A DNA stretch of 64,000 bases, taken from contig NZ_SOAU01000001.1 of NCBI RefSeq assembly GCF_004364865.1, forward strand, positions 2,574,001-2,638,000. Reading direction: 5' to 3'. The first letter of the stretch is position 1. Each line of letters starts with the position of its first letter. Origin of the DNA: Ilumatobacter fluminis. Lineage in GTDB: Bacteria; Actinomycetota; Acidimicrobiia; Acidimicrobiales; Ilumatobacteraceae. The notes below the pieces were generated by a model. That model was not told where the DNA came from, did not search any database, and was given only the letters and a program-made list of their open reading frames with translations. The translations under genes were made by a program, and so were the position numbers. This document shows positions 13,968 through 24,973 of the stretch, one piece after another.

Positions 13968-14057
13968 GGTTCTCCTCAGTGACTGCGAAACGTGTTCGCG
14001 CTGGACCGATGGGGTGCCGGCGGTCCGTCCGACTCGGACCGAACCGCCGGCACCGGC

Positions 14058-23455: not shown

Positions 23456-24208
23456 GGTCTCGGCGGCTGTAGTCCGACATCCCGAACCCAGGCCGCCGAG
23501 AAACCCGGCTCCTGAGCCAACGCACCGTTCTCGCGGGCTGCCGTCCGGTATCCCGGACCCAGCTCACCGAGAACCGGGGGCATGAGGCCCGGTGACCCCC
23601 CGTCGCCTCACCGCACCCGAACGCCTCGAAGCAACGACCAGCACCTCCGCCACCTCACGACGACCCGAGACCGCATTCCCGCACCAGCCCGATCTCGGCG
23701 GAAGCCGTTGCGCAAACCGCAACGAACGCCCCGAGAACCCTTGCTCCCGGCCCGGCGCACCGATCTCGGCGGCTCTCTTCCGACATCTCGGACTCAGATC
23801 ACCGAGAACCCGCCGGCGACCGAACTCGCTGCTTCCGAGCACACACCCTGCCAACCCACCATCCAGCACCACCGAGCACTCGACCACCCACGATCTCGGC
23901 GGCTCTCGTCCGACATCTCGGACTCAGATCACCGAGAACCCGCCGGCGACCGAACTCGCTGCTTCCGAGCACACACCCTGCCAACCCACCATCCAGCACC
24001 ACCGAGCACTCGACCCACCGATCTCGGCGGCTCTCGTCCGACATCCCGGACTCACATCGCGAGAACCCCGGATCCCGGCCCAGCGCACCGTTCTCGGCGG
24101 CTCTCGTCCGACATCTCGGACTCACATCACCGAGAACCCCGGCACCCGCCTCAACGCTCAGTTCTCGGGGGCTCTCGTCCGGTATGCCGGACTCAGATCA
24201 CCGAGAAC
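23456..24208. repeat. array of eight 48-nt nested-hairpin repeats
   Basis: The 891-bp gene-free stretch 23432-24322 between converging genes is occupied by this array. Copies: 23456-23503, 23527-23574, 23691-23738, 23762-23809, 23892-23939, 24020-24066 (47 nt), 24090-24137, 24161-24208. Each has an outer stem GTTCTCGG / CCGAGAAC (or GATCTCGG at the left) and an inner stem with a 4-5 nt loop. Inner stems differ but still pair: GTCCGA/TCGGAC, GTCCGG/CCGGAC and GTTGCG/CGCAAC. Start-to-start distances are 71, 164, 71, 130, 128, 70 and 71. The 23-nt spacers of the 71-nt units resemble each other (ending GCGCACC), unlike CRISPR spacers. No protein is supported in any frame. Confidence 0.9.
23762..24019. 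repeat. tandem duplication of a 128-130 bp unit inside the hairpin array
   Basis: 23762-23891 and 23892-24019 are nearly identical. Each starts with one 48-nt hairpin followed by an 80-82 nt segment containing ACTCGCTGCTTCCGAGCACA and ending in CACCGAGCACTCGACC. The only clear differences are one base in the first hairpin (TTCCGA for GTCCGA) and the junction (CGACCACCCAC versus CGACCCACC). The near-identity points to a recent duplication. Confidence 0.9.
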
Positions 24209-24322
24209 GGCAGGGTTGCGAACCGGGGCGCCAGAATGCTTGCCCCTCCAGGTGGTCGGCGGCTGCTCGCCGGAACTCGAGCACTCGAACATCGTGCACT
24301 GACGAGCTCGCGCGATCAGTGG

Positions 24323-24973
24323 TCAGCAGCTGCCTTCGGGCGGGATGTTGAGGGTGCTGCCGACGAGGAAGGTGTTCCAGACCGGGTTGTTCAGGTTCGC
24401 GTTGCTCAACTGGTCGACGGTGATGTCGTACTGGTTGGCGACGCGGGTCGGGTTGTCCCCGGCCACGATGGTGTGCGAGCAGCCGGTGCCCGTCGCTTCG
24501 TCGGTGTCTCCCGAGTCGGCGGTCTCGCTCGAGCCGGAGTCGGTCGACGAGTCGGTCGACCCGCCCGACGACGGCGTTTCGCTCGCACCCGGCGCCGCCG
24601 AGCCCGGCGGGATGAGGATGGTGTCGCCCGGCAGCAGCACGTGGTTGATGCCGTCGGTCCAGCCGTTGTAGGCGACGATGGCGTCCATCGTGACGTCGAA
24701 GCGGCCGGCGATCGCCGACAGGCTGTCGCCCGACTGGATCGTGTACGACTGCTCATTCGGCACGGTGCCACCCGCCGGCGTCTCACCGGGGGCGATCGTC
24801 GTGGTGGTGGTCGTCGTCGCCGGAGCCTTCAGGGCGTAGCTCGTGGTCGGCACGTAGTTGAGCGTGTCGCCAGAGCTGGCGGCCTCGCCGTCGGACGAAC
24901 CGCATCCCGAGAGCAGCGCCATGGAGGCGACACCGATCGTGAGCGCGAACGTCGCGCGAGGACTGGATTTCAT
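24323..24973 (-). CDS. lipoprotein with two LysM domains
   Basis: 216 residues. Signal peptide with lipobox LLSGC, a Thr-rich linker (TTTTTTTIAPGE), a first LysM (about 75-122: YTIQSGDSLSAIAGRFDVT ... LLPGDTILIP), a Ser/Thr/Gly/Asp-rich spacer, and a second LysM (about 165-213: TIVAGDNPTRVANQYDITV ... FLVGSTLNIPP). LysM binds peptidoglycan GlcNAc, so the protein is expected to sit on the outer face of the membrane and hold the wall. No catalytic domain. A pair of cysteines (GTGCSH and the C-terminal GSC) may form a disulfide around the second LysM. Confidence 0.9.
   Translation of the reverse strand: MKSSPRATFALTIGVASMALLSGCGSSDGEAASSGDTLNYVPTTSYALKAPATTTTTTTIAPGETPAGGTVPNEQSYTIQSGDSLSAIAGRFDVTMDAIVAYNGWTDGINHVLLPGDTILIPPGSAAPGASETPSSGGSTDSSTDSGSSETADSGDTDEATGTGCSHTIVAGDNPTRVANQYDITVDQLSNANLNNPVWNTFLVGSTLNIPPEGSC

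Follow-up and report, generated by a model that had tools for sequence, protein, structure and literature searches.

What kind of element is represented by a row of imperfect palindromes that fills a gap between two bacterial genes? We analysed a stretch of 64,000 nucleotides (the window), corresponding to positions 2574001–2638000 of one 4,775,416-bp contig, the 4.775-Mb chromosome of Ilumatobacter fluminis. As a preliminary description had stated, eight imperfect palindromes lie at window positions 23456–24209, inside an intergenic gap of 891 bp that is free of genes. The gap is flanked by an acyltransferase gene (PF01553; 22427–23431, + strand), which ends 24 bp before the array, and by a convergent gene for a LysM-domain protein (24323–24973, − strand). 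The units, all on the + strand, are unit 1 (23456–23504; inner stem decayed), unit 2 (23527–23575), unit 3 (23691–23739; of a GTTGCG/CGCAAC subtype also found at, for example, 4.708, 2.812 and 1.030 Mb), unit 4 (23762–23810), unit 5 (23892–23940; the top score to the covariance model of the window, 76.7 bits), unit 6 (24020–24067; with a 1-nt deletion in the 3′ outer arm), unit 7 (24090–24138) and unit 8 (24161–24209). When each unit was folded along with 200 shuffles of it, at most one shuffle folded as well as or better than the unit in six of the eight cases (z −3.4 to −4.7); of the other two, one was weak (z −2.0) and unit 6 folded no better than chance (z −0.9).

The spacings between units in this array are 71, 164, 71, 130, 128, 70 and 71 nt. 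They had been described as quantised at about 71 and about 129 nt. The first value holds, as a period of about 71 nt is found genome-wide. The 130-nt spacing, however, is due to a local duplication of a 125-bp block, and the 164-nt gap had been overlooked. The two block copies (23761–23885, unit 4 plus a long spacer, and 23891–24015, unit 5 plus a long spacer) are 99% identical and spaced by 130 nt. The motif GCGCACC, proposed as the common end of the spacers, is present in only a few of them. Local duplications and decayed units are what a decaying local tandem repeat, without any wider meaning, would contain; this reading is hardly credible, as it is refuted by dispersed copies at 26 other loci of this genome and in the related genomes G003, G004 and G032.

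A BLAST search of the array against its own genome returned 45 matching places, so the palindromes extend far beyond chance. One covariance model was built from the window copies (R1) and a second from 60 dispersed copies (R2); they found roughly 100 units at about 27 loci, many of them in arrays with the period of about 71 nt. An isolated weak match to R1 (26.5 bits) was also seen within the window itself, at 14013–14055 on the + strand. The curated final set comprises 107 units in 27 arrays scattered over the chromosome. A unit consists of a hairpin of about 48 nt and a C/A-rich linker of about 22 nt, and units follow each other within an array as direct repeats at about 71 nt; genome-wide, spacings are mostly 67–74 nt (taken from earlier unit boundaries, so that single values may be a few nt off). 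Nearly all arrays are intergenic by our own simple codon-bias gene calls, in tandem, convergent and divergent contexts alike (++ 6, −− 9, +− 7, −+ 6; that is, 6 of 28 divergent). The unit pattern had no match among viral contigs, and among genome contigs it matched only the MAG NAT239, in a search that excluded records of the genome itself and of very close ones. A literature search on Ilumatobacter repeats gave nothing relevant.

The palindromic design of the units is clear: 78.7% of cells pair, compared with at most 44.5% when the partners are slid. Compensatory changes of the inner stem, which the preliminary description had seen in the window, did not withstand a test on 60 aligned units, where covariation measures were not above those of shuffles (score 0.041 versus 0.039). 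At the inner-stem position (20,31), 37 of the 60 units have bases that do not pair, the commonest inner stem is GTCCG/CGCAC, with a C.C mismatch, and GTTGCG/CGCAAC is an inherited subtype common to several loci. The structure thus reflects descent from a palindrome rather than proven compensatory selection on an RNA. An Rfam search gave no family above its gathering score, the best hits scoring 19.7 and 15.5 bits where 40 and 50 are required. The same description had held that, with no supported covariation, no related copies in other genomes and no transcript, the array would be a decayed local tandem repeat; covariation is indeed absent, yet other genomes do carry copies.

If the repeat spread through, or acted on, the single-stranded template of the lagging strand, it would be expected to have a fixed orientation to the replication fork. 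We set the origin at dnaA (4.680 Mb). Strand skew over about 60 sampled stretches was weak and noisy, its sign tending to flip near 4.68 and 2.39 Mb. Array orientation was called from units anchored at TCTCGG and CCGAGA, using an unsupervised, iterative leave-one-array-out profile that was blind to position. All 27 arrays agreed with their replichore (Fisher p 5.8e-8): 15 of 15 from the origin to 2.30 Mb were called ‘−’, and 12 of 12 from 2.39 Mb back to the origin were called ‘+’. The stretch in which orientation switches is 70–170 kb away from a unique dif-like site, ATAATCGACGTTATGTCAA (locus L171, 1501–1519; chromosome position 2225814, that is 2.226 Mb). Taking this site as the terminus leaves 25 of 27 arrays in agreement (p 6e-6), those at 2.254 and 2.299 Mb being the ones that disagree. 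Orientation margins were small at some arrays (0.252, 2.812, 4.330 and 0.602 Mb). Agreement with the replichore was 24 of 27 (p 7e-5) after purine/pyrimidine recoding, and one shared C/G transversion in the inner stem agreed in 12 of 13 arrays (38 of 39 units).

Orientation was not associated with the strand of the flanking genes (p 0.7 and 1.0, obtained with earlier orientation calls that differ at four arrays), and we therefore rejected a transcriptional orientation. The same result bears on the possibility that the arrays act in a transcript, as structured RNAs or transcription terminators. Their GC-rich hairpins, and the position of the window array and several others between convergent genes, would suit such a role. 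However, orientation tracks replication rather than transcription, the gene contexts are mixed, and neither covariation nor an Rfam family was seen, making a function in RNA very improbable. Thus, of the three options offered by the preliminary description, the structured RNA array is unsupported; the mobile palindromic repeat family fits best, since its copies are dispersed, have a patchy distribution among relatives and occupy an orthologous site in one genome while missing there in another; and the hairpins may also be read as a protein-binding array.

The two strands of the arrays differ strongly in composition. On the nascent lagging strand, array spacers have a GC skew of −0.455 and an AT skew of +0.586, and the sign relative to replication is identical in 21 of 21 arrays. 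In contrast, 48 kb of ordinary intergenic DNA read on the same strand gave −0.017 and +0.019, respectively, so the asymmetry belongs to the arrays. Background replication skew was accordingly rejected as the whole explanation. Folded as DNA, 25 of the 27 arrays have their more stable hairpin on the lagging-strand template; the arrays share ancestry, so they do not amount to 27 independent tests. This preference is partly due to T.G pairs on the template, which are C.A mismatches on the opposite strand.

These data make strand-biased mutation a serious rival, since almost every orientation-informative position, like the spacers, leans towards C/A on the nascent lagging strand. A nearly symmetric palindrome might have been inserted either way round, and strand-specific mutation at hairpins of the lagging-strand template would then have created an apparent orientation; the asymmetry most often seen in the stem (C.A on one strand, T.G on the other) is that expected from C-to-T changes on this template. 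Three observations argue otherwise. The skew of background intergenic DNA is near zero. The signal includes the shared C/G transversion and persists after purine/pyrimidine recoding. Finally, orientation strength did not correlate with array homogeneity, used as a test of age; homogeneous arrays, including L190, which is absent in the sister genome, are oriented as strongly as heterogeneous ones. We consider an origin of the orientation by mutation possible, though unlikely.

We surveyed 61 genomes for the unit (I. fluminis being G000). Within the genus, G003 had 64 matches and G004 had 97; G032, from another genus, had 29, and a few other genomes had 1–9. Seven of the nine other genomes of the genus had zero copies, including the complete genome G009, and also G007, which is small and 74% complete. 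In G032, G036 and G048 (loci L064, L066 and L067), lower-scoring copies occur in other genera and another family; these are either homologues or independent palindromes.

G005 and G009 retain the gene pair of the window and lack the array; in G004 the pair is kept and the array is rearranged. In G004, which corresponds to the MAG NAT239 and is the closer of the two copy-rich relatives of the genus, we examined 16 array loci. Eight have flanks that match a G000 array locus, and there the orientation is the same in both genomes; the flanks of the other eight match none of the G000 array loci. We mapped the latter flanks to G000 by means of one chimeric query, and alignment at 3.943 and 3.704 Mb revealed two empty sites, where G000 has conserved the flanking genes and has no array. 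Since G000 lacks an array at eight G004 sites, two of them aligned as empty, arrays come and go. The G000 profile, applied to the seven non-shared G004 arrays that could be mapped, agreed in five with the replichore of the corresponding place in G000, on the assumption that G004 is collinear with G000; margins were weakest in the two exceptions, and the five with a clear orientation all agree. The repeat is therefore a dispersed palindromic family, gained and lost between relatives, with an exceptional orientation to replication.

In G005, the place of the window array is taken by two copies of another nested hairpin, about 65–70 nt long (L083, 2505–2670), which recurs at a few further places in G005 and at one in G006. 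Perhaps each lineage has a hairpin family of its own at this position.

It is also conceivable that the orientation is selected. Arrays would then serve replication or chromosome handling, for instance by binding a factor for single-strand binding, priming, fork restart or segregation, and, however the copies had been inserted, only those whose lagging-strand template forms the better hairpin would be kept. This would account for the agreement of all arrays with their replichore, for the hairpin preference seen in 25 of them, for the conserved orientation at the eight sites shared with G004 and for the lack of a link to gene strand. The patchy distribution, with no copies in most of the genus, and the presence or absence of arrays between relatives fit it poorly, however; moreover, 27 unevenly spaced loci are few for a KOPS-like signal, and no candidate binding protein was found. 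We judge selection for orientation to be distinctly unlikely.

The genome contains only one Y1_Tnp gene (at 4552110; 272 aa), which scores 53 bits against the model of REP-associated transposases, under the cut-off of 80. Its locus (L060, chromosome 4550610–4553930) is flanked by inverted tandem copies of a different repeat, GGTCAGGTGYCANAGGTGACG, which has 104 sites genome-wide. Such RAYT-linked repeats presumably move through single-stranded DNA. On one replichore and the other, the T and C forms of GGTCAGGTGYCANAGGTGACG tend to occupy opposite strands (p 0.02 and 0.002), as would be expected if transposition through single strands dictates orientation in this genome. The copy-bearing G032, G036 and G048 lack Y1_Tnp genes, which several copy-free genomes do possess. 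Ownership of the hairpin arrays by this RAYT was therefore rejected, as the gene has a repeat of its own and its presence does not track that of the copies.

We propose, with about even chances of being right, that the window array arose when a REP-like, non-autonomous palindromic repeat, inserted via the lagging-strand template, expanded locally in tandem. Replication would expose, on this template, the strand that folds into the better hairpin; the exposed single-stranded hairpin could be recognised by a Y1/HUH-type transposase acting in trans (or since lost) and inserted into the lagging-strand template elsewhere, and its direction with respect to the fork would thereby be fixed. Tandem arrays would then arise by slippage or by unequal recombination between the hairpins. 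The enzyme, the single-stranded intermediate and the mode of amplification are the putative parts of this proposal. Another reading, which we regard as unlikely, is that the repeats form a lineage-specific, fork-coupled class of elements, in which tandem hairpins are held so that the stable hairpin stays on the lagging-strand template, maintained by a putative replication factor or lagging-strand transposase that does not belong to the RAYT system. Bacteria commonly contain hairpin repeats, whose movement and possible guidance by the fork have so far been mostly inferred; a family that is oriented to replication in every array and has no obvious cognate transposase makes the question of fork guidance testable. 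The arrays can also serve as natural markers for the history of the replichores in this lineage.

Arrays of integron attC sites are likewise tandem imperfect palindromes whose folding depends on the strand. Here, in contrast, no cassette genes lie between units, the linker is about 22 nt, and the outer arms of the hairpin, GTTCTCGG..CCGAGAAC, presumably lack the attC arrangement. CRISPR, which the preliminary description had set aside, shares the regular succession of repeats and spacers. Instead of near-identical repeats with unique spacers, we find varying, divergent repeats at many loci, with short C/A-rich linkers that are shared or duplicated together with the units.

REP elements and their TnpA_REP/RAYT enzymes (REPtrons) are closer. 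REPs are bulged hairpins of 21–65 nt, extragenic, present in many copies and patchy in taxonomic distribution (PMC6006769), and the present units, 107 palindromes of about 48 nt in 27 nearly all intergenic arrays, resemble them in each of these features. Unlike in REPtrons, the 5′ GT[AG]G foot at the hairpin is not enriched (0 of 107 units on one strand; 19 of 107 on the other, where shuffles average 17), although this foot is missing from some REP classes (PMC6006769), and the sole Y1_Tnp gene is not flanked by copies. Nor do the units form REPINs, which consist of two inverted REPs, as they are direct repeats. Because both the foot and a cognate RAYT were looked for and not found, we do not file the family as a member of REP. 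IS608 and ISDra2, of the IS200/IS605 family, target the lagging-strand template (PMC6006769), and such a use would explain the orientation seen here, where no autonomous element carrying the array hairpins was found. With REP membership unproven, the hairpin family behaves like REP/IS200-type elements. The nearest parallel in layout is provided by the GI and GIII REP tandem arrays of Pseudomonas fluorescens SBW25, with spacings that include 71–72 bp and with forward arrays on one side of the chromosome and reverse arrays on the other (Bertels and Rainey 2011, PMC3116915). Both sets are ordered, intergenic tandem palindromes with a spacing near 71–72 nt and opposite orientation on opposite sides of the chromosome. 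The SBW25 arrays are associated with RAYTs, whereas no cognate enzyme was found for those of this actinobacterium, which have one nested hairpin per 71 nt, and whose 27 arrays are oriented chromosome-wide and show a strong asymmetry of strand composition.
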